Shown piece by piece: positions 11,490 to 34,275 of a DNA stretch of 37,718 nucleotides. Origin of the DNA: an uncultured beta proteobacterium (GTDB taxonomy: Bacteria; Pseudomonadota; Gammaproteobacteria; Burkholderiales; Burkholderiaceae_C); the NCBI GenBank assembly GCA_903945325.1, contig CAJAVE010000084.1:1-37718 (forward strand). Direction: 5' to 3'. Position 1 is the first letter of the stretch; every line of letters begins with the position of its first letter. The notes beneath the pieces were generated by a model. That model was not told the origin of the DNA, searched no databases, and saw only the letters and a list, made by a program, of their open reading frames with translations. Made by a program: the position numbers and the translations under genes.

Positions 11490-11499
11490 GCAAGCTTGC
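11490..11499. promoter_or_regulatory. Palindrome GCAAGCTTGC upstream of viperin operon
   Basis: A perfect 10-nt palindrome. Taking the equivalent 12-nt window (11489-11500), it ends 40 nt before the proposed viperin start at 11541. The same core with the same spacing precedes the cas2/cas1 operon and the CARF-wHTH/cmr operon. Downstream C-rich sequence (GCCGCGCCTCGC) also resembles the other two (GCCAC.CC.C.CC). A shared operator is inferred. Confidence 0.55.
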
Positions 11500-11540
11500 C
11501 GCGCCTCGCATTTTCGGGATTGAGAAACACAATTCCGTCA

Positions 11541-12494
11541 ATGCGAACAAACACCTCCAACACTGCGGCCCGCTACCAAGGTCAACTTGTCATCAATTGG
11601 CATATGACAGAAGCCTGCAACTACCAATGCAGCTATTGCTACGCGCACTGGACCAAGCCCGAAAGCGGGCGCGACGTGATGCACAACGCCGACCTCACAC
11701 AACGCTTACTGTCCCAACTGTTTGCGTTCTTTTCGCAGAACCCGTCTAACCCACTCAGGGCCGAGATGCAATGGGACTCTGTTCGCCTGAACCTGGCCGG
11801 GGGTGAGCCGTTGCTGAACCAAAAACGCACGCTCGCCATCGTCGCAATGGCAAAGGCCATTGGCTTTGACGTATCCATCATCACAAATGCCAGCCGTCTG
11901 GATGCCCCCACGCTCAGCGCTCTGGCACCGCTGACGTCCATGATCGGCATCAGCCTTGACTCGGCAAACACCACAACCATGCGTGAAATCGGGCGCAAGG
12001 ACAGCAAAGGCCGCATGCTCAATCTTGAGACGCTTTCCAGCTCCCTGCGCGAGGCGCGCCTTGCACACCCCGCCTTGCGCCTCAAGGTCAATACCGTGGT
12101 TAACCAATTGAACTGCGATGAAGACATGACCGCACTGGTCAAAAGCTTTGCACCAGACAAATGGAAAGTGCTGCGCATGCTCCCCGTGCTTACCAATCAG
12201 CTTGAGGTGACCGACTCGCAGTTCGCCGCATTCCTGGCGCGGCACCAAGCGCATGACACCGTCATCAGTGCGGAAGACAACGACTCTTTGACCGAGTCCT
12301 ACATCATGGTCGACCCCAAAGGCCGGTTTTTCCAGAACTCCATCGCTTTGGGTGCTGCGGGCTACCACTACAGCCGTTCAATCGTCGAAGCCGGAGCCGA
12401 TGCGGCATTCTCGGACCTGACGTTTTCAGCACGCAAATACCTCTCGCGCTACAGCCAAACCCGGGCCCATGAAATGCAAGAGACCTTGGTATGA
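11541..12494 (+). CDS. Prokaryotic viperin (radical SAM antiviral ddhNTP synthase)
   Basis: 317 residues from ATG 11541; an upstream TTG at 11496 would lie inside the palindrome. The radical SAM cluster motif is C26-x3-C30-x2-C33 (CNYQCSYC), followed by GGEP at 87-90. Several stretches match animal viperin closely: ISLDSANTTTMREIGR (viperin ISCDSFDEEVNVLIGRG), KVNTVVNQLNCDEDM (KINSVINRFNVEEDM), WKV (RWKVF) and 'DSQFAAFLARH' followed by SYIMVD (FERFLERH..SYLILD). Viperins convert a nucleotide triphosphate to a 3'-deoxy-3',4'-didehydro form that stops viral RNA synthesis. Which nucleotide is used here cannot be told. There is no adjacent nucleotide kinase gene. It leads an apparent five-gene operon. 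Confidence 0.88.
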   Translation: MRTNTSNTAARYQGQLVINWHMTEACNYQCSYCYAHWTKPESGRDVMHNADLTQRLLSQLFAFFSQNPSNPLRAEMQWDSVRLNLAGGEPLLNQKRTLAIVAMAKAIGFDVSIITNASRLDAPTLSALAPLTSMIGISLDSANTTTMREIGRKDSKGRMLNLETLSSSLREARLAHPALRLKVNTVVNQLNCDEDMTALVKSFAPDKWKVLRMLPVLTNQLEVTDSQFAAFLARHQAHDTVISAEDNDSLTESYIMVDPKGRFFQNSIALGAAGYHYSRSIVEAGADAAFSDLTFSARKYLSRYSQTRAHEMQETLV

Positions 12495-12531
12495 ACCATC
12501 AATCCACGCCAAAAGGCTGGGGGAAGGCACT

Positions 12532-13461
12532 GTGAAACTATTCAAAAAAATCAGCGACGTTCTGGACAATGCCCGCATTGCCTACACGTTTTCGGCATTT
12601 GAAGACAAGGCGCGTGCGCAGCACTTGGCCAGCGCTGCACGTCGTTTTTCAACAGGCGCGCTCGAAGTCGATGCCTACAAAAGAATGGAAGCCACGCACA
12701 CCATCGCTGATCAAAGGTTTGTGCAGCCCGAAATTGGACTAAACATCAAGGTCGTCCGCATTCAAGCGGCACTTCACACCAGTGCCACACGCCTTGCGAT
12801 TTTTGAGCGGGACTACCCGCGTGAGCTGCACTCCCTGCATGCGAAGAGAAGGGAACTTATCGACGAATGCCGCTCGATCAACAGCGCCAAGTCAGAAGCC
12901 TATGACGATCTGCAAAGCGCCGTCGACGATCTGGATGACTGGCACTCCCGGTCAAGCGGCACTTTTTTTGGAAACGGCGGCAAAGCACTTCCTAAACGCG
13001 CAGTCTTTGGGCAAAGCCTGGGCGACCGTGATTCACTAAAAGACGACCGTGACGTGGCAGGCAGTGAAATTGCCGCCTGCAAAAAGGCACTGGCCTCAAA
13101 GCGACTGGAAATCAAGCAAGTTGAAGATCGCATCGGTCAGGTCAAGGCCGACCAACAGCAAATGCGTGACCTACGCGCACACGGCTGCAGCGCGCGCACG
13201 TTTCATGAGGCCGTTGTCGACTGCACAAGAGAACTAGACCAAACCAAGAGGGATATTGCCCAACTGCAAGTCAACCGAGTTGAGTTCATAACCGCCGCCA
13301 AATACCGCACGGGAACGATATCCATTGAGGCAGAAATCGCAAAAGTAAGAGCGAGGCGCGACGCATTCATCCATTCTTTTGACACCGCACAAGCCAGCGC
13401 CCAGCGCAAGGCCTCGCATCGCGCCGAGTGGCTTGAAAAAAAAGGACAAAAGAAATCATGA
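12532..13461 (+). CDS. Coiled-coil protein in viperin operon
   Basis: 309 residues from GTG 12532, chosen because a GGGGGAAGG ribosome site lies about 6 nt upstream and because the longer frame overlaps the viperin 3' end. Not recognised. It is rich in charged residues and Ala/Leu/Lys, with long heptad-like stretches (about 65-120 and 170-245, the latter with KRLEIKQVEDRIGQVKADQQ), so a long helical coiled coil is likely. The layout loosely resembles PspA/phage-shock-type or scaffold proteins, but I cannot place it in a family. It is followed by an ATGA-overlapping membrane peptide, which suggests a membrane-linked partner for viperin (inference). Confidence 0.7.
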   Translation: MKLFKKISDVLDNARIAYTFSAFEDKARAQHLASAARRFSTGALEVDAYKRMEATHTIADQRFVQPEIGLNIKVVRIQAALHTSATRLAIFERDYPRELHSLHAKRRELIDECRSINSAKSEAYDDLQSAVDDLDDWHSRSSGTFFGNGGKALPKRAVFGQSLGDRDSLKDDRDVAGSEIAACKKALASKRLEIKQVEDRIGQVKADQQQMRDLRAHGCSARTFHEAVVDCTRELDQTKRDIAQLQVNRVEFITAAKYRTGTISIEAEIAKVRARRDAFIHSFDTAQASAQRKASHRAEWLEKKGQKKS

Positions 13462-13577: not shown

Positions 13578-13599
13578 AACCCAGTTGCTATTCGCAGAC

Positions 13600-14117: not shown

Positions 14118-14140
14118 CATTCGCATTGGGCGGCAAAGCA

Positions 14141-16289
14141 GTCTTAATCCCTTTTGAATCAGGGCTCCAATATCAGTTCATAGTCTCTTCTACAGCAGTT
14201 CTAGCCAGGACAGGAGCATCAATATCAGCCACGCTAAGGCTACTCCTGCCGGGAAGAGCAAGCTGGAGAGCTTTCTTTTAAGGTCATCCATTTAGGTCTC
14301 ACTTCTTTCCCTAACCAGGATTAAGTCTCAATCCATTTTGAATCAGGGCATTCAATATCAGCCTTGGCAGCAGTCGATCCTGGAAATGTCATCTCTTAAT
14401 CCCTTTTGAAGCAGGGCATTCAATATCGGACTATGAGTAGAAAAATGGTGGACCGAAACGTGTCTTAATCCCTTTTGAATCAGGGCATTCAATATCAGCA
14501 TGAAGATCGCGGACAAGCCCTGCCGCTAGGGTCTTAATCCCTTTTGAATCAGGGCATGCAATATCAGATTCAAGCTGGTTTCATGGCCAATGGTAAGTTG
14601 TCTTAATCCCTTTTGAATCAGGGCATTCAATATCAGTACTTCTCGGGGCAGGTGCGCGCAGCACTCGTCTTAATCCCTTTTGAATCAGGGCATTCAATAT
14701 CAGCTGATGTGATCAGCAAAGCAGAAACCGCCTTGTCTTAATCCCTTTTGAATCAGGGCATTCAATATCAGGAGCAAGTATGTAACGCTCTAGTTTACCG
14801 TAGATCTTAATCCCTTTTGAATCAGGGCATTCAATATCAGCGTAACCGTATCACGATCGTGAAGATGCGCAAGTCTTAATCCCTTTTGAATCAGGGCATT
14901 CAATATCAGGTCAAAACGGCCGCTAGCAAAGCCATTGCGGTCTTAATCCCTTTTGAATCAGGGCATTCAATATCAGGTCCCTGCTGAGTGGGTAGACTAC
15001 TATTGTGAGTCTTAATCCCTTTTGAATCAGGGCATTCAATATCAGTACACCTTGCGAAGTGACCCGCGTATTATCCGTCTTAATCCCTTTTGAATCAGGG
15101 CATTCAATATCAGCCGATAGAAACAGCAGAGCGTTACAGGGGAGTGTCTTAATCCCTTTTGAATCAGGGCATTCAATATCAGGGCGAGGCAGGCGCGGGC
15201 AAGACCGCCATTGGTCTTAATCCCTTTTGAATCAGGGCATTCAATATCAGCTTTGACATACAGTTGAAGATCGTGCGCAAGAGTCTTAATCCCTTTTGAA
15301 TCAGGGCATTCAATATCAGGTTTATCGGGTATCGGTGATGACCTGTCGCAAGTCTTAATCCCTTTTGAATCAGGGCATTCAATATCAGCAAAACCTTGGA
15401 GCCGTTCAAACTTATTTGCGCGTCTTAATCCCTTTTGAATCAGGGCATTCAATATCAGAGTCAATCCCGCAGCAAACCGTCCCGATTTCGCGTCTTAATC
15501 CCTTTTGAATCAGGGCATTCAATATCAGCTTAGGTGAACTGCTACGGCAGAAAATGGCTGAGTCTTAATCCCTTTTGAATCAGGGCATTCAATATCAGGG
15601 ACTTGCAGGCAAAGTTGAAAGGCGGTGCAGTCTTAATCCCTTTTGAATCAGGGCATTCAATATCAGAGCTATCATCAGTAAGATGAACGACAGCGACAGT
15701 CTTAATCCCTTTTGAATCAGGGCATTCAATATCAGGCAGACACACAACGGGTTTGGTTATCTAAACGTCTTAATCCCTTTTGAATCAGGGCATTCAATAT
15801 CAGCCATCGCACTGGATACACTCTGCGCCATGAAAGTCTTAATCCCTTTTGAATCAGGGCATTCAATATCAGGAGGCAAAGCAGAATCTCACGGAATTCA
15901 AGAAGTCTTAATCCCTTTTGAATCAGGGCATTCAATATCAGATATCTCAGTTTGTAGACGCAGTTATCAGTGCGTCTTAATCCCTTTTGAATCAGGGCAT
16001 TCAATATCAGACTACTTCAAGCAACAATCTACGACCTAGCCGGTCTTAATCCCTTTTGAATCAGGGCATTCAATATCAGGCTGAAACCTGAAACTGTAAA
16101 GACCTTGGAAGCGTCTTAATCCCTTTTGAATCAGGGCATTCAATATCAGGTCCGTGGACAGCAAACTTTGAGCACCATGCGCGTCTTAATCCCTTTTGAA
16201 TCAGGGCATTCAATATCAGGGTCCGCTTGATTCCCCTCACCGCTTAATTCTTGTCTTAATCCCTTTTGAATCAGGGCATTCAATATCAG
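14141..16289 (-). CRISPR. Type III-B CRISPR array, 29 repeats plus decayed tail
   Basis: 29 repeats of 37 nt start at 14325, 14393, 14462, 14531, 14600 and so on to 16253, with a period of 67-70 nt and 28 spacers of 30-33 nt. On the plus strand the repeat begins GTCTTAATCCCTTTTGAATC and ends CATTCAATATCAG. On the minus strand it ends in ATTAAGAC, like the ATTGAAAC handle of many type I/III crRNAs, so transcription runs leftward. A decayed repeat (14141-14176) and repeat scraps (14211-14228, about 14296-14320) lie at the left, as expected for the old end. Repeats 14393 and 14531 carry point changes. The repeat contains two possible short stems (TTGAAT/ATTCAA and CCCT/AGGG). Confidence 0.97.
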
Positions 16290-16432
16290 TCCAGGCATCA
16301 AAAACTTCAATTCCGACAAGCACTTGCGGGGGTGTTTGGGGGATTTTCGAAGTTCTCAAAACCTATGTTCCAAGGCAAGTATTTGCCATCATGTGAGTAT
16401 CTTCGCACAGCCTGCCGCGCGTTTGCTGCAAT
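16290..16432 (-). promoter_or_regulatory. CRISPR leader region
   Basis: 143 nt between the cas2 stop and the newest repeat (16253-16289). It contains a G/C-homopolymer patch (16328-16342) and A-rich patches next to the array. Its place at the well-kept end, beside the adaptation genes, marks it as leader. No clear promoter was identified, so array transcription could also continue from the cas2 operon. Confidence 0.7.
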
Positions 16433-16714: not shown

Positions 16715-17499
16715 TCCTTGGTCGCTTTCATGGCGGTGCGGTAGAGGCTGTTCAGGTGCAGCAGCAGGGCTGCACCGTTGCGGGCGATCCAGCGCTCAAA
16801 CAGGGCAATGGTTTCTTTGTCGGTGCTGGTGGTGTCTGCCAGGTCGCCGGTGCACAGGTTCATTTCGGCCCACAGCAGCTCGCACAGGTCGGTGTCCAGG
16901 TCTACCGCGTCGGATTGCGCGTCCCAAAGCAAGGGCGGCGCACCGTGTGCGGCCAGTTGGGCGCCAATATAGGCGAGCAGGTGGCCACGTAGCGCGCTGG
17001 GCAGGTGCTGGCGGTATTGCCTTGCGTAGACCCAGTCGCGCTTGGTGGCCTCCCACATGGCGGGGCTGATGGTTTCTGCCTGTGTTTGGCCCCAGCGCAT
17101 CAGCACGTCCATGCGCCGGGCACGCAGCCAGAGTTGATAGCGCTCGGGGCCGTCCGGGGTTTCCAGCCACAGCTCCAGTGCGGTGGCAAGCTTGGGGTGT
17201 TGGCGCTGGTGGGGGTAGCAGGTGCCCAAGGCCTCGCCGCGTGCATTCACCCAGCTGATACCGATGCCGTGTTGCAGACACAGTGCCAGTGCTGCGCCAC
17301 TCCAGTCGACCACGGTGCTGCTCACCACTCGGGCCACGCGCACCAGCGGGTAGCGCAGGGTTTGGGCGCGGTCGTTGCGCACTACCAGGGCCTCTGCGGT
17401 GCAGCTGATGTGCTTTTTGTCACGCGTACCCAGGTAGAGCGCGCGGGCGCCGGGGCCGGGCGCGCCAACTGCTGCGTGGTGGTGGGATGGGCTCAACAT
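16711..17499 (-). CDS. cas1: Degenerate Cas1 paralogue (probably catalytically inactive)
   Basis: 262 residues from ATG 17499, which overlaps the stop of the other cas1 by 7 nt (ATGTTGA). The N-terminal beta domain is Cas1-like (LYLGTRDKKHISC..ALVVRND..; GIGISWVNARGEALG). The helical domain is shortened. The region expected to hold the catalytic Glu reads LRGHLLAYIGAQLAAHG, the His of the GFYH motif is replaced in PPLLWDAQ, and only the last Asp (TDLCELLWAE, D204) appears kept. So this copy should not catalyse integration alone. A structural role with the intact Cas1 is inferred. Confidence 0.75.
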   Translation of the reverse strand: MLSPSHHHAAVGAPGPGARALYLGTRDKKHISCTAEALVVRNDRAQTLRYPLVRVARVVSSTVVDWSGAALALCLQHGIGISWVNARGEALGTCYPHQRQHPKLATALELWLETPDGPERYQLWLRARRMDVLMRWGQTQAETISPAMWEATKRDWVYARQYRQHLPSALRGHLLAYIGAQLAAHGAPPLLWDAQSDAVDLDTDLCELLWAEMNLCTGDLADTTSTDKETIALFERWIARNGAALLLHLNSLYRTAMKATKE

Positions 17500-18506
17500 G
17501 GCTCGTCGTCCTCGTCGTTGGGGGCCATCCAGTGCATACCGGTGCCACGCAGGTCGCGCGCCAGTGCTTGCGCCTGGGCGCGCAGCCAGCGTTGCCAGGG
17601 TTTGGCGTGCTCGTTCCAGCTGGCGTAAAAAACACCGCGCCCCGCCTTGCCCAGCAGGCAGGCGCTCCCGTCGGGCGCGGTGGTGAAGTGGTCGGCACTC
17701 AGGGTGCGGCTGCGCAGCAGCTCCCACACCCACAGGTCTACCGCCGGGCGCAGCGCTTCGATCAGGTCGCTGGCCAGGCTCTCGCGGCCAAAGGCGGGGC
17801 GGTGGTAGAAGCCCAGCAGCGGGTCCAGCCCCGCCACGCCACAGGCCTGCACGGCTTGCGCGTGCAGCAGGGTGTAGCCCAGCGACAGGCAGACGTTGAC
17901 CGGGTCGCGCGGCGGGCGGCGGTTGCGCCCGGTGAAGTGCAGGGCTGGTGGCATCACCCCGGCCAGGCCGCCAAAGTAGGCTCGGGCGGCTGCGCCCTCA
18001 TGGCCGCGCAGGGTGTCCAGCGGTGGCACAGTGTGGCTGGGCTCGGCGGCATAGCTGTCTAGCGTGGTGCGGATGGCGTCCAGTGTTTGCAGCGCGTCAA
18101 AGGTGGGCTTGCGGGCGTCGGGGCGCTGGCCTTGCAGCAGGCGCAGCGCGCGGCTTTGGCGGGCCAGCTTGGCGCGCACCACACCCAGCGCCCAGGCTCG
18201 GCACCAGGCGTCGTCCATCACGCGCAGGGCTTGGGCCAGGCGCACGGCGGCGTCGTTGTGCTGCGGGCCCAGTACGATGGCCACGCGCCGTGGGTGGCGC
18301 GGGCTCATCAGCACGGTGGTGGCGCCAGCGTCGGCCAGTTTGATGAGCACGCCACTGTCCAGCCGGGTCTGGCTGCCGTGGATGACGCAGCGGTCAATCA
18401 GTTTGAGCGGTACGGTGCCTCGGCGCTCACCCGCTTCATACAGGGCCAGGGTTTCGCCCTCGGATTTGACTTCGAGTTGTGCGCGGTCCAGTAGCAAGAG
18501 TCCCAT
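17493..18506 (-). CDS. cas1: Cas1 CRISPR integrase (catalytically intact copy)
   Basis: 337 residues. The metal-binding triad is visible: E170 in LRGHEGAAARAYFGGL, H235 in LLGFYHRPAFG and D247 in ESLASDLIEALRP. The N-terminal beta domain starts MGLLLLDRAQLEVK. Cas1 with Cas2 integrates new spacers at the leader end. It lies 5 nt downstream of the second cas2 and overlaps the degenerate cas1 by 7 nt, so all four adaptation genes form one operon transcribed toward the array. No reverse transcriptase fusion is present. Confidence 0.93.
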   Translation of the reverse strand: MGLLLLDRAQLEVKSEGETLALYEAGERRGTVPLKLIDRCVIHGSQTRLDSGVLIKLADAGATTVLMSPRHPRRVAIVLGPQHNDAAVRLAQALRVMDDAWCRAWALGVVRAKLARQSRALRLLQGQRPDARKPTFDALQTLDAIRTTLDSYAAEPSHTVPPLDTLRGHEGAAARAYFGGLAGVMPPALHFTGRNRRPPRDPVNVCLSLGYTLLHAQAVQACGVAGLDPLLGFYHRPAFGRESLASDLIEALRPAVDLWVWELLRSRTLSADHFTTAPDGSACLLGKAGRGVFYASWNEHAKPWQRWLRAQAQALARDLRGTGMHWMAPNDEDDEPC

Positions 18507-18511
18507 GGTGT

Positions 18512-18796
18512 TTATCCAACGTAAAAGTAGTCAGGGTCTGCCGGTGCTACGGCCTTGCCCAGTGCAAACAACTTGCTGCGTGGGTCCAGGCGCAGCAGCA
18601 GAAAGCGGTCAGTGGCGGCGTCCAGCAGGGCACGCATGTCGGTCACCAGCGCTTCGCGCTCTGCACATGTCAAAAACAGTTCATGTGCAGACTTTTGGCC
18701 ACCGGTGGCGTAGCGGCGCGCCAGCTTCAGGGCCGCGCTCAGGCGGCGGGGTTCGGCAACGTCGTAGCAGGCAAGGTGCAGGTCGCGGTGGGGCAT
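18512..18796 (-). CDS. cas2: Second, divergent Cas2
   Basis: 94 residues. Cas2 layout: LACYDVAEPRRLSAALKLAR with Asp 12, then HELFLTCAEREAL in place of the usual second strand, then a helix and a strand FLLLRLDPRS. It is first in the cas2-cas1-cas1-cas2 operon. Immediately before its ATG lies a 17-nt inverted repeat, and 39 nt before it a palindrome shared with other defence operons. No Shine-Dalgarno sequence is visible between the inverted repeat and the start codon. Confidence 0.85.
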   Translation of the reverse strand: MPHRDLHLACYDVAEPRRLSAALKLARRYATGGQKSAHELFLTCAEREALVTDMRALLDAATDRFLLLRLDPRSKLFALGKAVAPADPDYFYVG

Positions 18797-18813
18797 GCGC
18801 CAATTGTTGGCGC
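18797..18813. promoter_or_regulatory. Inverted repeat abutting cas2 start codon
   Basis: GCGCCAATTGTTGGCGC: a perfect 7-bp stem with a 3-nt loop, ending exactly at the cas2 ATG on the minus strand. In mRNA it would hold the initiation region in a hairpin, or as DNA it could be an operator. Confidence 0.55.
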
Positions 18814-18835: not shown

Positions 18836-18847
18836 GGCAAGCTTGCC
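18836..18847. promoter_or_regulatory. Palindrome GGCAAGCTTGCC upstream of adaptation operon
   Basis: Perfect 12-nt palindrome ending 39 nt before the cas2 ATG. A possible minus-strand -10 (TATACA) lies directly upstream, so a bound protein would overlap the transcription start. The same element precedes the viperin and CARF-wHTH genes at the same distance. Confidence 0.6.
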
Positions 18848-18871: not shown

Positions 18872-18920
18872 AGGCTGTAAGCCTCGTCAGTATTGCGCAA
18901 CTAGCTATGAAAGTTGTAGC
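18872..18920 (+). repeat. Dispersed repeat copy between cas genes
   Basis: AGGCTGTAAGCCTCGT, then TATTGCGCAACTAGCTATG, then GTTGTAGC. It is the same family as at 10.3 kb and supplies the stop codon of the cas6 scrap next to it. Confidence 0.6.
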
Positions 18921-18991
18921 GTATACCCGCTCATACCCATGGTGGCATTTTTGCCCCCATGCAGCCACTGGCCCAACCACAGCCAGGGCCG
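18905..18991 (-). pseudogene. 3'-terminal fragment of cas6
   Basis: About 28 codons read RPWLWLGQWLHGGKNATMG then a changed tail and stop. The intact Cas6 C-terminus reads WPWLWLGQWLHVGKNATMG. At DNA level 18952-18990 and 20594-20650 are nearly the same over about 50 nt. It lies between the second CARF nuclease and cas2, so a duplication or rearrangement of the cas6 region has happened here. Confidence 0.8.
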
Positions 18992-20555: not shown

Positions 20556-20557
20556 GG

Positions 20558-22852: not shown

Positions 22853-22862
22853 GTTGGGGTCT

Positions 22863-25096: not shown

Positions 25097-26238
25097 GATT
25101 TGATGGCTATCAATACGTTACTTGCCACTTGGACTTCAAATTTTTCAAAGCATTGGTTCTGGCGGATTTTGTTTTGCAAGCTTACCGGAAGCGATTGCAG
25201 CAATGCCTCACCATTTGGTGCGTAGGCATTGGCAGATTTTCCATTCGCTTCTGCGGTCAGCGTGTTGTTTCCTCGATTGAACTTGAGCCGTGCAGCGGGC
25301 CAATTTTCTACTGGCGCAGTGGGAGCGACGGTAGCAGTTGGTGCAGCGGCACTGGTACCCGCGACTGACTGGACACTAGCAGCCACCATGGCCCCGTAAC
25401 CCACGGACGTCTTGGCTCCAAAACCCACCCACTCAAAGGCGTGGTGAAAAGCGCGATCCAACAGTGAACGCCATTGGTTTACCAGCGCCTCAGGTAAGCG
25501 GCTGGGGTGGCACACCACATGGAAGTCAAATTGGGATTTGGCGGGCACAGCCAAAAAGCTGACCGGAACGGGTGCGCCAGAGTCATGGGGCGCTTCGTCG
25601 CCCTGGTAGTACTTGCCGTAGTGCGGGGTCATGATTTCGACCGCCAACTTGCCACTTGCGGGGCTGGGGAATACGTCCCAAAAGTCGAGCGCACCGCGTT
25701 TGGCGTCTTCGGGTTGGTTGACTTCTTCGGGGCCAAAAAGCGCGTCAATCGCATCAGCGGTAAAACCCTCTTCACCATCATCCGCCAACTCTTGCATGGT
25801 TCGTCGCACGATACCTTTGACTCCGCTACCCGCCAGGTACGGCAAGCCGTAGGGCGTGAGGAAGGCAAAGCCATTTTCGATTGGGTGCTCGTTGCCCAGG
25901 CCCGTGGCAAAGGGGGCAGTGGAAGTGGTGGGGAGGCGATAGCCGTTACTGCCGTAGTGCTTGATAAGGGCCAGTTGGCGGTCGCGGATGCCTTTCAATA
26001 CATTCACGCTCGACGGCGAGAATGGGCAAAGATCCTTGAGAACGCCCGCGCACTCCCGATCGAAGATGGCTCGTTCGTCTTTGCCTTGAGGGCGTGATTT
26101 CTTATAGGGCTCGAAGGTGTTGCCATTGGCCCCCTGCCAATGCTCTAAATACAAATTAAACCGATGTCCCGGTGCTGCATCCTTCAAATCTTTGGGGAAA
26201 AAGTCTGGAATTGCAGCGATGCGTTGCGGAAGTGGCAT
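25093..26238 (-). CDS. cmr6: Cmr6, type III-B effector subunit
   Basis: 381 residues. The RAMP features are typical of Cmr6: YLAGSGVKGIVRR (about 134-146), PHYGKYYQG and GFGAKTSVGYG (near 271-281). A Pro/Ala/Thr-rich linker and a C-terminal extension of about 95 residues follow the core and make the protein longer than many Cmr6. Cmr6 caps the Cmr4/Cmr5 filament near the crRNA 3' end with Cmr1. It begins 2 nt after cmr5 and its stop overlaps the hepT start. Confidence 0.93.
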   Translation of the reverse strand: MPLPQRIAAIPDFFPKDLKDAAPGHRFNLYLEHWQGANGNTFEPYKKSRPQGKDERAIFDRECAGVLKDLCPFSPSSVNVLKGIRDRQLALIKHYGSNGYRLPTTSTAPFATGLGNEHPIENGFAFLTPYGLPYLAGSGVKGIVRRTMQELADDGEEGFTADAIDALFGPEEVNQPEDAKRGALDFWDVFPSPASGKLAVEIMTPHYGKYYQGDEAPHDSGAPVPVSFLAVPAKSQFDFHVVCHPSRLPEALVNQWRSLLDRAFHHAFEWVGFGAKTSVGYGAMVAASVQSVAGTSAAAPTATVAPTAPVENWPAARLKFNRGNNTLTAEANGKSANAYAPNGEALLQSLPVSLQNKIRQNQCFEKFEVQVASNVLIAIKS

Positions 26239-26240: not shown

Positions 26241-26612
26241 TCAGACCCCTTGCTTGTCAACTGCATCCACAAACTGCCGAATCCATTTCAGCAGCTCCAA
26301 CGCTTCGTCGGTATAGCGCAGATAGTCGCGTGACTCACCTTTTTGCAGCATGACCATAAACGACAAAAAGTCACGCGGCGCAGGTTGTGGTGCAAGACGC
26401 TGAAGCAGGCCAGACATCAGGTCATGCAGTAATTGCCGGTGCTCGGCATCTTTGCCGCTGTAAAACGCCAGCGTGGGCATCAGCCCGCTGTTCATGATGA
26501 GCGCAGGCGCGCCTTTGGCTAGGTTTTTGTATTTCTTGCCGTGCTGCTGTATGCCTGCCGTGGCATAGCCCCAGGCCAGTGCGGCGCGTTTTTGGTCAAG
26601 TGTTTGGGTCAT
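26241..26612 (-). CDS. cmr5: Cmr5, small helical subunit of the Cmr complex
   Basis: 123 residues, mostly helical. TLDQKRAALAWGYATAG at the N-terminus and 'GLMPTLAFYSGK' followed by 'YLRYTDEALELLKWIRQF' are the Cmr5 pattern. Cmr5 forms the minor filament that lies along the target RNA. It sits between cmr4 (16 nt) and cmr6 (2 nt). Confidence 0.93.
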   Translation of the reverse strand: MTQTLDQKRAALAWGYATAGIQQHGKKYKNLAKGAPALIMNSGLMPTLAFYSGKDAEHRQLLHDLMSGLLQRLAPQPAPRDFLSFMVMLQKGESRDYLRYTDEALELLKWIRQFVDAVDKQGV

Positions 26613-26628: not shown

Positions 26629-27576
26629 TTAGGCAGCCTGCACCATCACCAGTCCGCGCCCGGTGGTGGCATCGCCGCCAATCTGCAAGAGCTTGCCGCC
26701 AATGCCCGAGGTTGCCGAGCTGGCGCCGGCAAACACGTGTGCCAGTACCTCTGGTGCGTTCAGCAACGCGGTGGACTCCGCATTGCGACTGTTCTTTTTG
26801 AAACGCTCAATGCTGGCCTGCGCCAGGCCCACCATTAGCGTCTCGGGCGGCAGATTTTCTACATAAAACAAGCCACCGTCCGATGCGGTGCCTGACGCAT
26901 CATCAATGCGCACGTGCGGCTCTACCACCATGGCGTGGCGGGAGAAGTGGGAAAAGTCGGTGTCGTGCAGCAGTACCATATCGGCCCTGAACTTGTCGGC
27001 AAAGAAGTTGCTACCGCTGCCGCCCAGGGCACGGGTGGCAATCCATAGGGCAATGGCTTTGAGCTTGTCATCCACCTCGGCGGGGAATTCAAACGCTTCC
27101 AGAACGAGCTGCTTGCCTTGCAGCAGGTTGGCACTGGCAGCCAGTGCCTTGTCGGCGTCGACCGACGGAACCGACCAATCGAGCGCCATGCCCGCTTGCG
27201 TTGCCATGCGGTGCAGCCGGGCCAGCGCCAGCGGGCTGGTGACATAGGCAAAGCCGCCTTTGAGTGAGCGCACGGGCAGGGCGACCAGTTGCGCATCGCT
27301 CAGACTCAAGGCACCGGCAAAGTCCGACGCGCTGGTGTCCGGGCCAAATATGCGGCTAATTAAGCTGTTGGGTTTGCTGCTATCGCCCTCGGCACGCGGC
27401 CAGGCGCGGTTGAAGTGGTGGCGCAAAGCGCCTTTCAAGCCACTGCCCGCAAACATGGGGTGCAAGGTGTGCACCTCGCGCTGAATCGGGCTATCAATGG
27501 CGCCAATGGCGCTGCCCGCGCCCATGTGGACGGGGCTGACGGCATAGTAAAAAACGAGTTGGGAAGCTTCAAACAT
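26629..27576 (-). CDS. cmr4: Cmr4, backbone subunit and target-RNA nuclease
   Basis: 315 residues. The N-terminal Cmr4 signature is VSPVHMGAGSAIGAIDSPIQ, with D28 in IDSPIQRE as the expected catalytic Asp that cuts target RNA at 6-nt steps. MFAGSGLKGALRHHF follows. A C-terminal GIGGKLLQIGGDATTGRG loop is the RAMP Gly-rich loop. Several copies polymerise along the crRNA. It lies 37 nt after cmr3. Confidence 0.95.
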   Translation of the reverse strand: MFEASQLVFYYAVSPVHMGAGSAIGAIDSPIQREVHTLHPMFAGSGLKGALRHHFNRAWPRAEGDSSKPNSLISRIFGPDTSASDFAGALSLSDAQLVALPVRSLKGGFAYVTSPLALARLHRMATQAGMALDWSVPSVDADKALAASANLLQGKQLVLEAFEFPAEVDDKLKAIALWIATRALGGSGSNFFADKFRADMVLLHDTDFSHFSRHAMVVEPHVRIDDASGTASDGGLFYVENLPPETLMVGLAQASIERFKKNSRNAESTALLNAPEVLAHVFAGASSATSGIGGKLLQIGGDATTGRGLVMVQAA

Positions 27577-27613: not shown

Positions 27614-28807
27614 TTAATTCCAGGCCGCCAGCAAGGCGCGGTTGTAGCCCTCGGCGCGGCGCATCTGTTGGTTAGGGTATAGATCATCAGGCCAAAGCCC
27701 TTTGGCGACCCACGCGGCAAGCTTGCCCGAATCGCCCGCGAATTCGTCAAACCAATACACGCTGCCTGCGGGTACGGCAGCTTGCGCGGGTTTGGGTGCC
27801 CAGTGGTACAGGTCCCAACCGCTGACCACTTCGCGGCGGCCCAAGGCAGCGCAGGCCAGGCGGGCGCTAAAGCCATCGCCTTGCAGGCGGTAGCTGCCAT
27901 CGTCGTGCTGGGTAACGCCTTCGGGTAACCAACCTTGACTGAACAGTGCAGGGGTTTGTAGCAGCAGGCGAAACTGCTTTGTAGAGCCGGGGATGTTGGC
28001 AACCACAGGCGCAGTGAACGCCACTTTGCGGTACTGCGCGCTGCGGCCATCGCCACCCAGGCGCAGCAAACCGGCATCGGGCAACAGGTTTCCCACGCCT
28101 TGAATGCCGACCAGAAAGCCGGTGCTGGCAAAGATGCCTTGCGGGTTGAAAGCGAAACCTTCGGTGGTGTATATCTGCCCTTCTTCTGCAGTGCGGGCAT
28201 CGGCGTTGAGGCCAATGCCCAAGCGAGGGTCGCGCTGATAAATGTGTTTGCTCTCGACACTGTGGGCCTTGTCCATTTGCTCTGCTGCATGGCCTTGCAG
28301 GTGGTGCGTCAGACCCTTGCCGCGCAGAAATACACCGCCTTGGGGTTTTTCTTGCTTGGCGGACACCAAGGTGGCACGCAGCGGCAGGTCGCCTGCGGAC
28401 TGCACGCCAGACGAGTGCGCGCGGGGCTGCAGGGTGGCAAAGTGGCTGCCCAGCAGAGCCAAGTCGGCGGGCAGGGGCGAAATGGTCTCGGGCGCAGAGC
28501 TTTGATGGCCAGACTGGCCCGCCATAGAAAGCCAGGTTATGCAAAAGTCCCCCGGCAACTCTGGTGTGCCTAGACATTGGGCCAGCGCCGCATCGCTGCA
28601 TTGGCCCTGCTTCAAAAATGCGGTCATCTGTACCGAGTCTTTGCCGAGCAGCGCCGAACGGAATGCCCCTGCGAACAGCGAAGGCGGTGGCGGCATGAGG
28701 CAGGCACCGTGCTCGCCACTGTCGCCAAAGGCCAGGTTGCCACGCACAAACAGGCTGTCGGTGGGGCGCACGTAGTAATAGGTTGTGTCTTTGTGGGTGG
28801 TACTCAT
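27614..28807 (-). CDS. cmr3: Cmr3, crRNA 5'-handle-binding subunit
   Basis: 397 residues. The N-terminus YYYVRPTDSLFVRGNLAFG followed by 'PPPPSLFAGAFRSALL' is the Cmr3 pattern, with two RAMP folds expected. Cmr3 pairs with Cmr2 and binds the crRNA 5' handle. The start overlaps the cmr2 stop (ATGA). A GGCAAGCTTGCC stretch at 27716-27727 is in coding sequence (Gly-Lys-Leu-Ala) and probably has no regulatory meaning. Confidence 0.93.
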   Translation of the reverse strand: MSTTHKDTTYYYVRPTDSLFVRGNLAFGDSGEHGACLMPPPPSLFAGAFRSALLGKDSVQMTAFLKQGQCSDAALAQCLGTPELPGDFCITWLSMAGQSGHQSSAPETISPLPADLALLGSHFATLQPRAHSSGVQSAGDLPLRATLVSAKQEKPQGGVFLRGKGLTHHLQGHAAEQMDKAHSVESKHIYQRDPRLGIGLNADARTAEEGQIYTTEGFAFNPQGIFASTGFLVGIQGVGNLLPDAGLLRLGGDGRSAQYRKVAFTAPVVANIPGSTKQFRLLLQTPALFSQGWLPEGVTQHDDGSYRLQGDGFSARLACAALGRREVVSGWDLYHWAPKPAQAAVPAGSVYWFDEFAGDSGKLAAWVAKGLWPDDLYPNQQMRRAEGYNRALLAAWN

Positions 28808-31800
28808 GCTGCGGCCTCTTCGCGTGGGTTTTGCGTTTTGGCTTCGTGTTTGATTTGCCGGGCAATGTCCTGAAAGCTACGGGCCTCGCGGGCGAAGAAT
28901 TCGCTGGTGACCAAAAAGTTTTCGATCGCCGTTTTGGGGTGCGCGGGGTGCATCACATCGCACACAAAGTCAACCACTTGGCGGGCTAACTCTGCGCTGC
29001 CCTTTTGGCGCTTGAACTGGTAGGCCAGTGAGCTTGTCATTTGATCGCGCCAGACCACACTCTTTGAATCCTTCGCATCGTCCGTCAAGCCTTCAAACCA
29101 AAGCTGTGCTTTAAAAATGGCCCCGCGTGAAAAGTCGGTCAGTGCCAGTTGCTCGGCCAGTTGCTTCATCAAGGCCAAGGCGCTTTGCGACGTGTCGGGT
29201 TGCTGGGTGGCGGTATTCACGGGCCACCAGGGGCTGGTGACATTGACCTCGCCGCCGCCGCGTTTGAGCACACGCAGGCAGAAGGCATCGCGGTTGATGT
29301 CTTCACCCTTACCGTTTTTGCCACGCGGGGTGTTCTTGGCCCGGCTTTCTGCCGCCCGCAATTCACGCAGCACCAGCCCCAATGGTGCGCTATGGTGCGC
29401 CACCACCGCGCCCATGGAGGCAGTGGCTTTGTGGCCCATGAGCGTCATCAGGCGGCCACCCAGCAAGCCAAAGCCTTTTGCCAGCAACAGCTTGCGTTGC
29501 CTGGCGTTGCCACCGGGCTGCAGGGTGCCAATGCGCTCACCCAACTGCATCGCATCACTGGGCGCAATACCGCTATAGGCCAGACGCAGAAGCTGCATAC
29601 AGTCAAACAAATCATCTACTGCCACCAACGCCAGCACGTCGTCGCCCCCGGCATAGAGCAGCTTGCCTTTGCAGCAGTCTTCCACAACGTGGCGGGCCAG
29701 GTGGGTGGAAAAGTCGTTCAGCGCTTGCGAAATGACACCATGGCGGCCGGGTGATACCGGACGCTTGGTGTCGAGGTATCGGCGTACCGCGTCGCCTTGT
29801 TCCTTTAGGTGCTTCTCCCGCGTCTCCAGGTTCTGCATCTCGGCCAGCACACTGCTGTGCCAAGTTTCGCGGTACTTCAGCTTGTAGTCGTCTTCATTCC
29901 CGGCAAGCCAGCCGCCCATGCGGTCGCCGTCCATCAGGATCAGGGCGTAGTAGGTCTCGGGGCGGCTGTCGCCCAGCAATTGGTGAATAGTGCGCTCCAG
30001 ATGCTGCGCTTGGGCAGCATCATCGGGCGTGTTATCCAGCATGTCGGGCAGTTTGCGCAGCGTCACCTGCTCTGTTTCTGATAGCTGTCCACGCTGGTAC
30101 AGCGTGCGCAAAAGGGCTTTTGGCAGGGTCACGTTGTCATAGTCCGCAGCCGTGGCCGCCAACGCTTGCAGGGCGGAGCGCTGGTCGGTGGTAAGTGGCT
30201 GCGCGGGGTCGGCCAGCTTCTCCAGCGTAGTGGACAAGGCCAGTGCATGGGTGCTGACCACAAAGCGCCGCACGGTGCCGCCAGTCAAATCGCTGATGCG
30301 CTCGGCAAACATCGTAGGCCACAGGCGTTTGAGGGTGGCAATGGCACCCAAATGTTCGCCGGGTTTGACCCAGGATTTTTTCTTTTTGGCAAGACGGCCC
30401 CAAACGCTTTGAGCCTCGCGGTCTTTGCGGTTCAAGCCGAGCAAGGTCCGGTCGTGGGTGAGCCATTCGGCCTCGCCTGTCAGAGTGCAGCGGTGGCCTG
30501 CTTCCAACAATGGTGCAAAGGGCCGTGTGGCTTTGGCCGCACCCAAAGTGCGCTCAACCAGTTCGTACACCGCCGGATACAGGATGCCGGTGTTGGGTGC
30601 CCAGAACTGCAGGCCGTCGAGCTTGAGTTCTTTCGTCAGCACCTTCCAGGTCGACTCCTGGAACACGCCTTGTGTTTTGAGATCAGGGTGAATCTGGTCG
30701 AGGGCGGCGTGCAGTTGCCCGCTGGCGGTGGTCAATCCTTTGTCTTGCTCTTCTGCGCTGCCCACGGGCCAGATGGCTGCCGCCCAATAGGCTTCGGGGA
30801 AGCCCCTGAGTTGTTGATCGATCTGCGCATGGGTGGCATCGGTCATGGGTACGCCAGCGGCGTCAAAGGCACGTTGTGCAGCCTCACGTGTCCAGAGTTT
30901 TGCTGCATTTTTGATAGCTGCTACCGCACGTTCTGCAAGGGCTGCAGCCTGTTTTGACGGCACAATCGCCATGAACTTGTTGGGCAGGCTGGCGGCAAAA
31001 AGCGGGTTGGTGTCGGTGCGGTCGGCCAGTAGTTCGGAATCAATGTTCTCAAACAGTTGCACAAAGGCATCGCCACCCACGTCGCGCTGCATGAGCCATC
31101 GGTCCACCACCGGCACGCCGCGCAGGGCCGGGAATACCATGCAGTCTGGCCCCAGGTGGCTAACAATGGGTTGCATGGCCTCCCACACCAGGCTGGAGAG
31201 CAGGTGCGAGCCCGCCCACAAGTCCGACGTGGACCGGGCCTGGCCGATAAAGCCTTGCACCGGGCCAAAGCTCATCACCAGTAGTGCGGGCTGATCCGGG
31301 CCGGTCTCGTCACCCGCCAGTGCGGTGTGGATGGCGGACACCGTATCCACATGCGACCAGATGCTGTGGTCGGGTGTGCGCGAGTCGGCGGGCAGCATGT
31401 TCCACAGCACGCCCAGCTGGTCTGCACTTTTGCCCGCCTCGGGGCCAAAGCGCCAGAAGGCCAAAAAGGTCTTGCGCAGTTCTTCGCCCGCCTTTTCGTC
31501 GTCTTCCTGAATCAGGCTCTCGAAGTGGTTTTGGCTGACGGCTTTGATGCTGTCTACGCCAATGTCCAGGTTGAGCGGCCCCAGCTTCAGGCATTCGCCC
31601 GACAAGGGGTGAATCAGCTCGGGGTCTTTGGTGAAGTGCACGGCCTCGAACTTGGGGTAGCGTTTGGCATCATCCCCGCGCGGCCAGTTGGGCCGGTCGG
31701 CAGCGGCGGCCAGATGGTCGGCGCGTTTGTCGAATAACTTGGATGAAATCTCCAGCGCCTGGCGCAAGCGGCGCGATGTGCCTCCCTCGTGGCCCTCTTT

Positions 31801-31884
31801 GTCGCGCATCAAGACCAGTTGCTTTTCAGCCGGGTCGTGCAGCCAAGCAGCGATTTTTTTGGTGTAGTCGGTCTTGTGTGTCAT
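28804..31884 (-). CDS. cmr2: Cmr2/Cas10, cyclic-oligoadenylate synthase subunit
   Basis: 1026 residues. An N-terminal HD-type motif is present (WLHDPAEK, H16-D17, and ADHLAAAADR near 55-64), and the Palm polymerase motif LLYAGGDDVLAL is intact with GGDD near residue 747. So the protein should synthesise cyclic oligoadenylates on target binding, and the HD site may retain ssDNA cleavage. It is the large subunit of the Cmr complex, 3 nt after cmr1. A dispersed repeat (30902-30950) is translated in frame about a third into the protein, near residues 312-328, probably as a surface insertion; a weaker one may lie near 30.09 kb. Confidence 0.96.
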   Translation of the reverse strand: MTHKTDYTKKIAAWLHDPAEKQLVLMRDKEGHEGGTSRRLRQALEISSKLFDKRADHLAAAADRPNWPRGDDAKRYPKFEAVHFTKDPELIHPLSGECLKLGPLNLDIGVDSIKAVSQNHFESLIQEDDEKAGEELRKTFLAFWRFGPEAGKSADQLGVLWNMLPADSRTPDHSIWSHVDTVSAIHTALAGDETGPDQPALLVMSFGPVQGFIGQARSTSDLWAGSHLLSSLVWEAMQPIVSHLGPDCMVFPALRGVPVVDRWLMQRDVGGDAFVQLFENIDSELLADRTDTNPLFAASLPNKFMAIVPSKQAAALAERAVAAIKNAAKLWTREAAQRAFDAAGVPMTDATHAQIDQQLRGFPEAYWAAAIWPVGSAEEQDKGLTTASGQLHAALDQIHPDLKTQGVFQESTWKVLTKELKLDGLQFWAPNTGILYPAVYELVERTLGAAKATRPFAPLLEAGHRCTLTGEAEWLTHDRTLLGLNRKDREAQSVWGRLAKKKKSWVKPGEHLGAIATLKRLWPTMFAERISDLTGGTVRRFVVSTHALALSTTLEKLADPAQPLTTDQRSALQALAATAADYDNVTLPKALLRTLYQRGQLSETEQVTLRKLPDMLDNTPDDAAQAQHLERTIHQLLGDSRPETYYALILMDGDRMGGWLAGNEDDYKLKYRETWHSSVLAEMQNLETREKHLKEQGDAVRRYLDTKRPVSPGRHGVISQALNDFSTHLARHVVEDCCKGKLLYAGGDDVLALVAVDDLFDCMQLLRLAYSGIAPSDAMQLGERIGTLQPGGNARQRKLLLAKGFGLLGGRLMTLMGHKATASMGAVVAHHSAPLGLVLRELRAAESRAKNTPRGKNGKGEDINRDAFCLRVLKRGGGEVNVTSPWWPVNTATQQPDTSQSALALMKQLAEQLALTDFSRGAIFKAQLWFEGLTDDAKDSKSVVWRDQMTSSLAYQFKRQKGSAELARQVVDFVCDVMHPAHPKTAIENFLVTSEFFAREARSFQDIARQIKHEAKTQNPREEAAA
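30902..30950 (-). repeat. Dispersed repeat copy inside cmr2
   Basis: On the minus strand it reads AGGCTGCAGCCC, then a short spacer, then GGTAGCAGCTATCAAAAATG and CAGCA. This is the family layout seen at 10.3 and 11.4 kb. The frame of cmr2 is kept. Confidence 0.55.
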
Positions 31885-31887: not shown

Positions 31888-33012
31888 TTAACCCTTGCGG
31901 ATGCGGTTGAGTAGCGTGGGGCTTTGTGCATTCAAAAATAGATGCACTTGCTGCCAGACTGCAATTTGGTCTTTGATTTCGGGAGGGTGAACAGTGCTGC
32001 GCTCAAAAAACGCCCGTGGCATGGCGCTGGGCAAATGCGTGATGAGGCCAAAATATTTACCGTCCTTGCTTTTGGCAACCTTGAAGCGCATCTGGCTGGC
32101 CAGGCGTGCGTTGGGCAGTCCTGCCAAACCGTGGTTGGTGACCGGGTAGGCCAATACATGCCGATCTTCCACCCGGCCGTGGGGTGCGCCGCTGTTGAGT
32201 TTGAACTGGGTGCGAAAACCGATTTTGAGGGCGGCGAGTTGCTCCATGACGAGGCGCCAGTTGTCGAAACCCAAGTACTTGCCTTCTTTTGCATCGCGGC
32301 CAGCCACCACACGCCACACAGCCGGCCGTGCATCAGCACACAAACCCACTGCGTGCGGCCATTCATTCGCAAACCGATCGCCCAAAGCGTTCGCTAAGCT
32401 GCGCAGCGGTGACTGTTCTGCCAACTTGGAATCACATAGTTCGGCCCAGCCCAGAATGCCTTCGCCTTCGACTTGCAAAGAGCCCCAGCCGTTGCGTGCA
32501 CGGGAACCCAGCGTGCCAAACCAGGCGGCCAGTTGCATGGCTTTTCGCAGCGTTTTCTCTTCGGATGTGGGGAAACGCAGTTTGAAAGTGACGTCAGGGG
32601 CTTCTGGCGCAATGGCGTTGCGATTGCCATTGGTGGTGACTGGGCCAAAGCCGAGATAGACACCCGTCCCAATCGGGCGCAGTTGTCCGGTTTGTTTGTC
32701 TTTGACTTCTGGGTGTTGGTGCGTAGCCATCCTGGGAAGCTCGGTCAACGTGCCCGTATCCCAACGTGACAAGCGCAACTGCACCTTGGACCGTCCGCCG
32801 CCATCGTCGTCCCCAGCGCTGCCAAACAGCTCGTTTTCCAGCGACAAAAGCTTGCAGTGGTCATAACCCACCTCTGGGGCTTTCACCACCCGCCACCACT
32901 GCCGCAGCAGCGCTTTGAACGGCGGCGTGCGCCACTGGGCCTGTTGTTCGGCATTGCCCAAAAAGGCGGGCGTATTGAAACTGACCTGGTAGGTCAATTG
33001 GGTCATGCTCAT
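31888..33012 (-). CDS. cmr1: Cmr1, type III-B effector subunit
   Basis: 374 residues. The N-terminus VSFNTPAFLGNAEQQAQWR followed by 'PPFKALLRQWWRVVKA' is the Cmr1 signature, and a second RAMP half has 'WFGTLGSRARNGWGSLQVEG'. Cmr1 binds near the 3' end of the crRNA guide. The ATG overlaps the stop of the CARF-wHTH gene (ATGA); an ATG two codons later is an alternative. Confidence 0.94.
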   Translation of the reverse strand: MSMTQLTYQVSFNTPAFLGNAEQQAQWRTPPFKALLRQWWRVVKAPEVGYDHCKLLSLENELFGSAGDDDGGGRSKVQLRLSRWDTGTLTELPRMATHQHPEVKDKQTGQLRPIGTGVYLGFGPVTTNGNRNAIAPEAPDVTFKLRFPTSEEKTLRKAMQLAAWFGTLGSRARNGWGSLQVEGEGILGWAELCDSKLAEQSPLRSLANALGDRFANEWPHAVGLCADARPAVWRVVAGRDAKEGKYLGFDNWRLVMEQLAALKIGFRTQFKLNSGAPHGRVEDRHVLAYPVTNHGLAGLPNARLASQMRFKVAKSKDGKYFGLITHLPSAMPRAFFERSTVHPPEIKDQIAVWQQVHLFLNAQSPTLLNRIRKG

Positions 33013-34220
33013 CTCATTTCCTCCCCGTGCGGCATGTTTGTCACCGCATCAGTCTCGAATCTAACCGACTCTGGCGACAGCGTCAGTCGGTATTTACGCG
33101 GACGGGTGCCACCGTCGTCAATTCTGTAGTGCGTCGCTGCCGGACCCAAGGCGCTATTCAGGCGCCGTTCCAGCTTGGATTTGCGTTGCGAGAAATATTC
33201 GCCATCCATACCCGCTTTGAGTGCCCGCTCGGTGGCTTCAATGTCCACCAGGGTGTGGTGGCAAGAGCGGTATTCCCGCAAGAATCGTTTGGCCCATGCC
33301 ATATCGGGCGAGCCTTTTGGAGGCGCAGGAAGCGCTGGTCCACCTTGAATTGCCTGGCGTACAAAAACGGCTAAAAGTGCCAGCTCCGCAGGTGGCAGTT
33401 CGATAGCCTGGCCGCCAGCGCGAATGCTACGGGTGGCCAAATTGACCACAAGTTCAGGCGCTGCCAGCGCCGCTTGCGCAGCAATCACGGTTTCGTTGAA
33501 GCTGGCGTGCCCTGACAGCAGCTTGGCTGGCAGGCCGTGGCGCAAACTCACAAACGGAATTTCTGCCAGCGTGACTTCGGCCATTGCTGCGTCAGCCAAA
33601 CTTTTAATGCCGTTCCTGGTAACTGTAAGCACGCGGCTGTAGGGCGTGGGGTAGAAGAAGTCAAAGCTGTTCTCAAATGGCTCGCTCACCAGCACATGGC
33701 TGAGGCGGTCTTGTGGCCTGCCATAGAGCGAGAGCGCGTAGCCCAAATAGAAGCCCATTGTTTTGCGACCCCCGGCTATGGATACATGCAATGCGCAGTC
33801 TGGGTCGGCACTGAATTCACGCACGCGCGCCGTGATGAAGTCGGCAGCAGCGCGGTTGTCGCCGATGGTGCGGATATCGTCCATGCCGCGCTCATTGGCA
33901 TCACGCATGATGTGGATGTTCTTTCGGCTAAACGTAATTCCGGGCAGATCGTAGTCTTTGCACAGCTTGTGGAACCACCCCAAATCGTCGCTGAGCAGTG
34001 AGAGTTCAGCCCGCTGTGCGCCTTCGCGGGTGGTGATGAGGTGGACTTCGGTGGGCACAAACGGCGCGTCCGGGCTGGCGGCCAATGCGTAGATGGTTTC
34101 GGTGACGATCTGCGGGGACAGGCCGCTGACGGCCAGCAGTATGCGGCGCTTGAATTGACTAGGATGCTTAACAGCGTAGGGGCTATGGATGGCTTCTGGA
34201 GCTGGCTTTTGCGTTTTCAT
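33009..34220 (-). CDS. CARF-wHTH protein, NE0113/TIGR02584-like (often labelled Csm6)
   Basis: 403 residues from ATG 34220; a GTG at 34274 would lie inside the palindrome and is less likely. The CARF domain has ILLAVSGLSPQIVTETIYAL (ligand loop 32-42) and HVSIAGGRKTMGF (147-155). The C-terminal 130 residues (LPPAELALLAVFVRQ... to ...RPRKYRLTLSP) look like a winged helix-turn-helix rather than a HEPN RNase. Databases name this family as a CRISPR ring nuclease or Csm6, but no clear HEPN motif is seen here. It may bind cA4 and DNA. It is first gene of the cmr operon and translationally coupled to cmr1. Confidence 0.8.
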   Translation of the reverse strand: MKTQKPAPEAIHSPYAVKHPSQFKRRILLAVSGLSPQIVTETIYALAASPDAPFVPTEVHLITTREGAQRAELSLLSDDLGWFHKLCKDYDLPGITFSRKNIHIMRDANERGMDDIRTIGDNRAAADFITARVREFSADPDCALHVSIAGGRKTMGFYLGYALSLYGRPQDRLSHVLVSEPFENSFDFFYPTPYSRVLTVTRNGIKSLADAAMAEVTLAEIPFVSLRHGLPAKLLSGHASFNETVIAAQAALAAPELVVNLATRSIRAGGQAIELPPAELALLAVFVRQAIQGGPALPAPPKGSPDMAWAKRFLREYRSCHHTLVDIEATERALKAGMDGEYFSQRKSKLERRLNSALGPAATHYRIDDGGTRPRKYRLTLSPESVRFETDAVTNMPHGEEMR

Positions 34221-34257
34221 GCTGGTCAGTGTATGCACGAAAGCGGTGTTGGTGTGG

Positions 34258-34275
34258 CGTGGCAAGCTTGCCACG
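34258..34275. promoter_or_regulatory. 18-nt palindrome upstream of CARF-wHTH/cmr operon
   Basis: CGTGGCAAGCTTGCCACG is a perfect palindrome. Its 12-nt core (34261-34272) ends 40 nt before the CARF-wHTH ATG. It also lies 5 nt after the speD stop, but no T-run follows, so it is not a standard terminator. The best-conserved copy of the element shared with the viperin and cas2/cas1 operons. Confidence 0.65.

Follow-up and report, generated by a model that had tools for sequence, protein, structure and literature searches.

The palindrome and its promoters in the window

The stretch of DNA analysed here, positions 1 to 37,718 of contig CAJAVE010000084.1 from an uncultured beta proteobacterium (hereafter the window), contains a type III-B CRISPR locus, with cmr1 to cmr6, Cas10/Cmr2 and an array, and a viperin gene that stands next to the array. 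The operons of viperin, cas2/cas1 and CARF5/cmr are each preceded by the palindrome GCAAGCTTGC and by a -10-like hexamer at a fixed spacing from it. This element, and CARF5 as its possible regulator, are our subject. The features concerned are as follows.

11490..11499, + strand: palindrome GCAAGCTTGC before viperin, exact match
11528..11533, + strand: -10-like hexamer CACAAT, 28 nucleotides (nt) after the viperin palindrome
11541..12494, + strand: prokaryotic viperin (NF038283, 331 bits, cut-off 180; CxxxCxxC at residue 26)
18837..18846, - strand: palindrome GCAAGCTTGC before cas2, exact match
18803..18808, - strand: -10-like hexamer AACAAT, 28 nt after the cas2 palindrome
18512..18796, - strand: cas2
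34262..34271, - strand: palindrome GCAAGCTTGC before CARF5, inside an 18-bp perfect palindrome (34258-34275)
34228..34233, - strand: -10-like hexamer TACACT, 28 nt after the CARF5 palindrome
33009..34220, - strand: CARF5 (Cas_NE0113, TIGR02584), with a predicted C-terminal OmpR/PhoB-type winged helix; proposed regulator
27717..27726, - strand: fourth palindrome GCAAGCTTGC, in the cmr3 codons GGC AAG CTT GCC, 140 nt before cmr4
27683..27688, - strand: hexamer GATGAT, 28 nt after the palindrome embedded in cmr3; weaker, and overlapping codons
27614..28807, - strand: cmr3
26629..27576, - strand: cmr4

An initial annotation of the window, made from its letters, had reported the palindrome before viperin, cas2 and CARF5, and exact GCAAGCTTGC was found in all three places, as were the 12-bp and 18-bp extensions described there; the fourth exact copy, inside cmr3, had been overlooked. 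The claim that such a 10-mer is rare in 37 kb also held, since 100 dinucleotide shuffles gave 0.22 copies on average and in no case as many as the four seen here. Moreover, the annotation had proposed an operator-like element common to the three operons, marked by a distance of 39-40 nt to the start codon. The common element was recovered as the exact palindrome with its hexamer, which starts at a spacing of exactly 28 nt at all three promoters. The distances themselves were correct (counted from the 12-nt core, 40 nt for viperin at 11541, 39 nt for cas2 at 18796 and 40 nt for CARF5 at 34220), but they are not a true invariant: in Accumulibacter and Thauera the ATG is 65-67 nt off whilst the hexamer is still at 27-29 nt. 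The ATG distance is constant in the window because the hexamer spacing is fixed. The three hexamers end 6-7 nt before the ATG (11528-11541, 18796-18808 and 34220-34233), and therefore the transcripts may be leaderless or nearly so.

The same annotation had suggested scanning the whole genome for intergenic copies. The 12-mer has five copies in the 4.69-Mb genome, three of which fall in the window. The 10-mer occurs 22 times, against 3 for a reversed control, and 18 of these copies (the cmr3 one included) lie inside frames of 162-939 amino acids, of unchecked homology. Such a number of copies, mostly within open frames, might speak for chance sharing or for a mobile repeat without function, to which we return below. 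However, an open frame that spans a site says little about coding, because the cas2 and CARF5 sites, which are upstream of annotated starts, are themselves crossed by mechanically called frames of at least 90 amino acids. Another cas2 operator site (L295:5401) sits in a 425-codon frame, which made an open frame over a site unusable as a test of coding. Only the viperin site and one other of the 22 copies, on contig C22 at 25236, lie in no frame of at least 90 amino acids; around the latter (L002:1501-1510) both strands lack an nAnAnT hexamer at 28-29 nt.

Conservation of the element and the genes that follow it

The main comparison set consisted of 1.13 Mb from 80 CARF5 (NE0113) loci, those ranking highest in similarity among at least 560. 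They span beta- and gammaproteobacteria and Acidobacteria, and among these best 80 of at least 560 the nearest relatives of the window's CARF5 bear the name Rhodoferax. GCAAGCTTGC is the commonest 10-bp palindrome of the set, with 112 copies in 70 of the 80 loci; the runner-up has 32, and among the 320 palindromes of the same GC content the runner-up has 11. The exact palindrome lies no more than 250 nt before the CARF domain in 57 loci, with a further 7 if one mismatch is allowed. Its core, CAAGCTTG, is found within the same distance of CARF5 in 65/80, whilst each of the other 95 8-bp palindromes of equal GC content is so placed in at most 2/80. Across the tree of the family the core precedes 87 of 114 CARF5 genes, near-copies included, and its presence requires 15 changes on that tree compared with 24.5 when shuffled (FastTree, with long branches and near-copies). 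The initial annotation had proposed upkeep before orthologues as a check, and this was borne out among 103 genomes of the genus: the exact palindrome precedes CARF5 in all seven that are CARF5-positive, and it precedes cas2 in two relatives (G023 and G032), where the site, the 28-nt spacing and AACAAT are all kept.

The spacing is conserved along with the palindrome. In the 80 loci an nAnAnT hexamer starts at a spacing of 28 in 51 of 224 site-strands and at 29 in 15, with 0-8 at other spacings. Removal of site-strands more than 60% alike retained 182 of the approximately 224, of which 43 have the hexamer at 28 and 12 at 29, whilst spacings of 10-59 outside 27-29 average 1.3 and nowhere exceed 4. 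With a looser set of hexamers, 43 of 57 CARF5 promoters have one at 28 or 29; a closer inspection by eye of the other 14 revealed that 8 have GACAAT, TATAAC or TATAAA starting at 27 or 28. These promoters lack a -35 box, a T occurring at its first base in only 1 of the 57 (17-nt spacer assumed). A fixed -10 spacing and a missing -35 box, the two properties examined as marks of an activator operator next to the -35 position, were thus both found. With the palindrome immediately ahead of the -35 position and no sign of a -35 box, the layout is probably that of an activator-dependent promoter.

With these counts to hand, chance sharing or a functionless mobile repeat can be rejected on the shuffles, the 80-locus counts and the filtered spacing, and we give it next to no credence. 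Neither the shuffle expectation nor the 28-nt spacing at all three window promoters agrees with it, nor do the 112 copies in 70 loci, and most site flanks are less than 60% identical to each other.

The genes preceded by GCAAGCTTGC in the 80 loci are CARF5, csm1/cas10, csm2, cmr1, cas6 and cas2, with the hexamer typically at 28-29 nt. Among 93 site-strands bearing a hexamer of the looser set, the longest downstream frame matches CARF5 in 44, cmr4 in 9 (owing to the palindrome within the 3′ end of cmr3), cmr1 in 7, cas2 in 4 and cas6 in 2; 25 have frames unmatched to window proteins and 2 have no frame. Eleven of the 25 unmatched frames were scanned, giving four type III-A Cas10/Csm1, two Csm2, one CARF-RelE, one DUF2130, one DUF6922 and two proteins without a family. 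As both Csm and Cmr genes lie downstream, the operator would serve type III-A as well as type III-B systems. The association with cas2 is partial: the site is within 250 nt of 4 of the 8 cas2 genes in the 80 loci and before none of the four cas2 genes in loci of a separate sample of the order (L052, L053, L055 and L060). The window's cas6 has no exact or one-mismatch site in the preceding 200 nt, though homologues elsewhere carry the operator. Taken together, these comparisons of sequence give good support to a type III CRISPR operator that is real, is deeply conserved and has promoter architecture.

The copy within cmr3 recurs in homologues, for example at L111:7931 and L143:17942. Of 48 aligned cmr3 homologues, 12, all related sequences, encode KLA at the embedded site, and the leucine codon is CTT in 12/12 compared with 46 of the 526 leucines of those genes. 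The retention of a rare codon therefore points to selection on the DNA. Many of the remaining homologues have AAG CTT two residues further on, as judged by eye. G023 has another site at L293:4636 (- strand), followed at 28 nt by CAGAAT. It is directed away from a second cas2, with the array some 600 nt ahead, and so array transcription may also be part of the regulon.

The viperin protein is also matched by PADLOC pVip and shows both the radical SAM CxxxCxxC motif and an equivalog-level score. The operator is not general to viperins: in the DNA fetched, none of eight other loci has the site (L074-L076, L078 and L289-L292), where the L078 stretch spans 1,994 bases and its viperin is partial, and where 3 of the 7 viperin-bearing plasmid records are included. 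The link between viperin and operator rests on a single promoter, being made up of the exact palindrome, exact spacing and good hexamer in this genome.

The remaining features of the window are listed below.

12469..13461, + strand: 330-amino-acid protein that overlaps viperin; Pfam, NCBIfam and PADLOC gave no family
14136..16308, strand not given: CRISPR array, about 30 repeats
17493..18506, - strand: cas1
20558..21595, - strand: cas6
21662..22870, - strand: CARF-PDDEXK effector nuclease (Card1-like)
25093..26238, - strand: cmr6
26241..26612, - strand: cmr5
28804..31884, - strand: cas10/cmr2, with the GGDD cyclase motif at residue 746
31888..33012, - strand: cmr1

The 330-amino-acid protein had no homologue among the fetched comparison loci other than the window's own. 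The CRISPR locus also encodes csx16 and a toxin-antitoxin-like pair, namely a PIN-domain protein and a nucleotidyltransferase-substrate-binding protein (23533-23934 and 24665-25096, both - strand). The main cas1-cas2 pair is separated from the array by genes for a second Cas2 (16433-16714, - strand, 63 bits) and for a further Cas1-like protein, a divergent one (16711-17733, - strand, 39 bits). None of the 80 CARF5 loci has a homologue of a 540-amino-acid protein with a weak Card1-type CARF domain (19029-20651, - strand). Two intergenic stretches, 11380-11450 and 18880-18930, each near an operator, look alike by eye (TATTGCG.AA..AGCTAT) and are perhaps an intergenic repeat.

CARF5 as the candidate binder

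CARF5 is a natural candidate for the binder, because it is encoded in these loci and the site usually stands before its own gene. Its CARF domain scores 256 bits against TIGR02584 (cut-off 80.65) and carries the PADLOC name CARF5; in Foldseek the N-terminal half matches Cad1, Cam1 and Csm6, CARF proteins solved with cyclic tetra-adenylate (cA4) or cyclic hexa-adenylate (cA6). The C-terminal model (residues 250-403, 154 residues) has a predicted local distance difference test score of 87.5, and its first 23 Foldseek matches are without exception DNA-binding domains of the OmpR/PhoB type, the best having an E of 8.6e-3 and a probability of 0.99. A Pfam scan of CARF5 gave no further domain and no nuclease domain. 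With a predicted C-terminal winged helix and no nuclease domain, CARF5 thus has the make-up of a CARF protein with a winged helix-turn-helix, as the initial annotation had named it.

That annotation had also suggested this protein as the regulator. In the genus, the promoter form indeed follows CARF5. The hexamer is present at 28 nt for 11 of the 13 12-mer sites, a set assembled by hand, in four CARF5-positive genomes, although two of the 11 are weak (one on contig C94 within a 368-amino-acid frame, probably by chance, and GATGAT in cmr3). In 33 CARF5-negative genomes, some of them less than 90% complete, it is found at 27-29 nt, on either strand, for 1 of 25. The suggestion is less well served by some type III loci that show the motif without a match to CARF5. 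A tight tie between motif and CARF5 among the type III loci of the class held only in part: the core CAAGCTTG with its hexamer is present in 25 of 36 such loci from CARF5-positive genomes compared with 7 of 19 without a TIGR02584 match (Fisher p 0.025). The 19 come from 17 genomes and the 7 from five; L307, with a partial CARF5, was excluded from both groups, whilst L273 was counted as lacking CARF5 and yet holds a partial one by a C-terminal profile. The locus sets overlap, in that L248/L152 and L256/L141 are, judged by length, the same contigs and L105, L106, L107 and L109 recur as L111, L112, L113 and L119.

These data led us to regard it as probable that the palindrome is the operator of an activator that travels with type III loci, most likely CARF5, and that here this activator has also captured viperin. 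CARF5 is the likely binder on the strength of the sequence comparisons and the structural model, and activation would follow from the promoter layout. Several observations weigh against this. No core is found upstream of 27 of the 114 CARF5 genes, and when the order is sampled less selectively the exact 10-mer lies within 200 nt in only 8 of 21 other CARF5 loci, two more having it with one mismatch (L056 and L061) and two with two mismatches (L055 and L072). The Foldseek E-values of the C-terminal matches are weak, none being at or below 0.001, and relatives of OmpR and PhoB mostly bind direct repeats. An operator-linked viperin was seen in one genome only, viperin being present in 1 of the 103 genus genomes (E 1e-50). 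The 7/19 loci already count against a strict tie, and the comparison with 25/36 is biased towards CARF5, as CARF5-positive stretches can include its own promoter and L284 and L285 were chosen for their CARF5. Lastly, the motif is present in L249, L259 and L260, which come from two genomes with a listed completeness of 98%, and CARF5 was not found there.

Those last loci bear on another explanation, that the site belongs to a different regulator, either one of the host's transcription factors or a different protein borne by CRISPR loci, with CARF5 merely one of its targets. Seven type III loci carry the motif without a detectable CARF5 (L249, L254, L259, L260, L274, L276 and L317), as this would predict. 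However, five of them (L254, L260, L274, L276 and L317) are on contigs of 7-9 kb, though the L249 and L259 contigs measure 52.8 and 25 kb, and beside L249 and L259 no second winged helix-turn-helix regulator or other DNA-binding protein was recognised among the ten proteins examined (PADLOC for all, Pfam also for eight). A search of 13 Cmr loci with the C-terminal profile returned nothing but the partial CARF5 in L273. Moreover, a host factor would hardly track a motif that stands before CARF5 in both proteobacteria and Acidobacteria, and the genus hexamer counts (1/25 against 11/13) do not favour it. We therefore consider a different regulator unlikely. CARF5 was not found in viral contigs by tblastn.

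It could also be that CARF5 does bind the site, but as a repressor, or as a regulator in its apo-form that is released or weakened by cyclic oligoadenylate. The archaeal Csa3 proteins offer a precedent: in the available parts of PMC8844856, Csa3b of Sulfolobus islandicus is described as holding cas genes repressed, and the specific DNA binding of Csa3Sso is unchanged by cA4, which also warns against assuming control by cyclic oligoadenylate. The site upstream of the -35 position, the lack of a -35 box and the predicted OmpR/PhoB-type domain are instead the layout of an activator, and repression or release by ligand seems to us improbable.

The proposed regulon and known systems

If CARF5 is the activator, a dimer would bind (T/C)(G/C)GCAAGCTTGC(C/G)(G/A), a site that adjoins the -35 position on its upstream side and, with the hexamer taken as the -10 element, has its centre near -45. 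Bound there, the dimer would bring RNA polymerase to promoters that lack a -35 box but possess a -10 element at a downstream spacing of 28-29 nt. Cas10, which in the window carries GGDD, would recognise target RNA and make cyclic oligoadenylate; this would bind the CARF domain and putatively alter the activity of CARF5. Since CARF5 would control its own gene, the system could self-amplify, with effector, processing and adaptation genes being renewed and, in this genome, viperin switched on. Going further, CARF5 might be a master activator, gated by cyclic oligoadenylate, of a bacterial immune regulon comprising type III-A and III-B effectors, CRISPR RNA processing, spacer acquisition and itself, with operators embedded in coding sequence and with defence genes such as viperin joining by gaining an operator. 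This wider proposal is tentative, and we put it at a little under an even chance.

Signalling by type III CRISPR systems has so far been known mainly for nuclease activation. If a bacterial CARF protein with a winged helix has a conserved operator of this kind, type III immunity would also act through transcription, on a defined regulon and by way of a binding site open to test, and the wiring of other defences, here viperin, to CRISPR sensing would be explained. The palindrome, the 28-nt spacing and the -10 element provide a sequence handle for finding more members of the regulon.

The nearest studied kind to CARF5 are the Csa3 proteins of archaea (Csa3a, Csa3b and Csa3Sso), which, in the accessible portions of the sources, share with it a CARF domain, a C-terminal winged helix and CRISPR association, and are expected to bind palindromes at cas promoters, adaptation genes included (PMC8844856, PMC4333418, PMC7480081). 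CARF5 differs in its CARF family (TIGR02584/PF09623), in its occurrence here in Proteobacteria and Acidobacteria and in its predicted OmpR/PhoB-type domain. No Csa3-named family was among the library matches of the window proteins, which give NE0113, CARF5 or Csx1; the profile libraries used presumably contain a Csa3 model. In the parts of the literature searched, accounts of Csa3 include neither this operator nor its promoter spacing nor type III-A/III-B targets. NE0113 itself has been predicted to regulate transcription directly, as it has no C-terminal effector domain (PMC4012209); in the main text of that paper, as far as accessible, the words operator, promoter and autoregulat are absent and no target genes are named. 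A search of the literature that covered few subscription papers and excluded preprints gave no report of an operator or regulon for NE0113/CARF5.

CARF5 resembles activators of the OmpR/PhoB type in its predicted DNA-binding fold and in the placing of its proposed site, immediately before the -35 position. Unlike them it has a CARF domain in place of a receiver domain, and its operator is palindromic, whereas theirs are usually direct repeats. The window's viperin resembles other prokaryotic viperins (pVips), with a score far above the NF038283 cut-off and the PADLOC match; the eight other pVip loci examined lack the operator, and here viperin adjoins the CRISPR array. Oligoadenylate signalling and viperin also meet in the interferon response, of which this system would be a bacterial counterpart if CARF5 is indeed a master activator gated by cyclic oligoadenylate.

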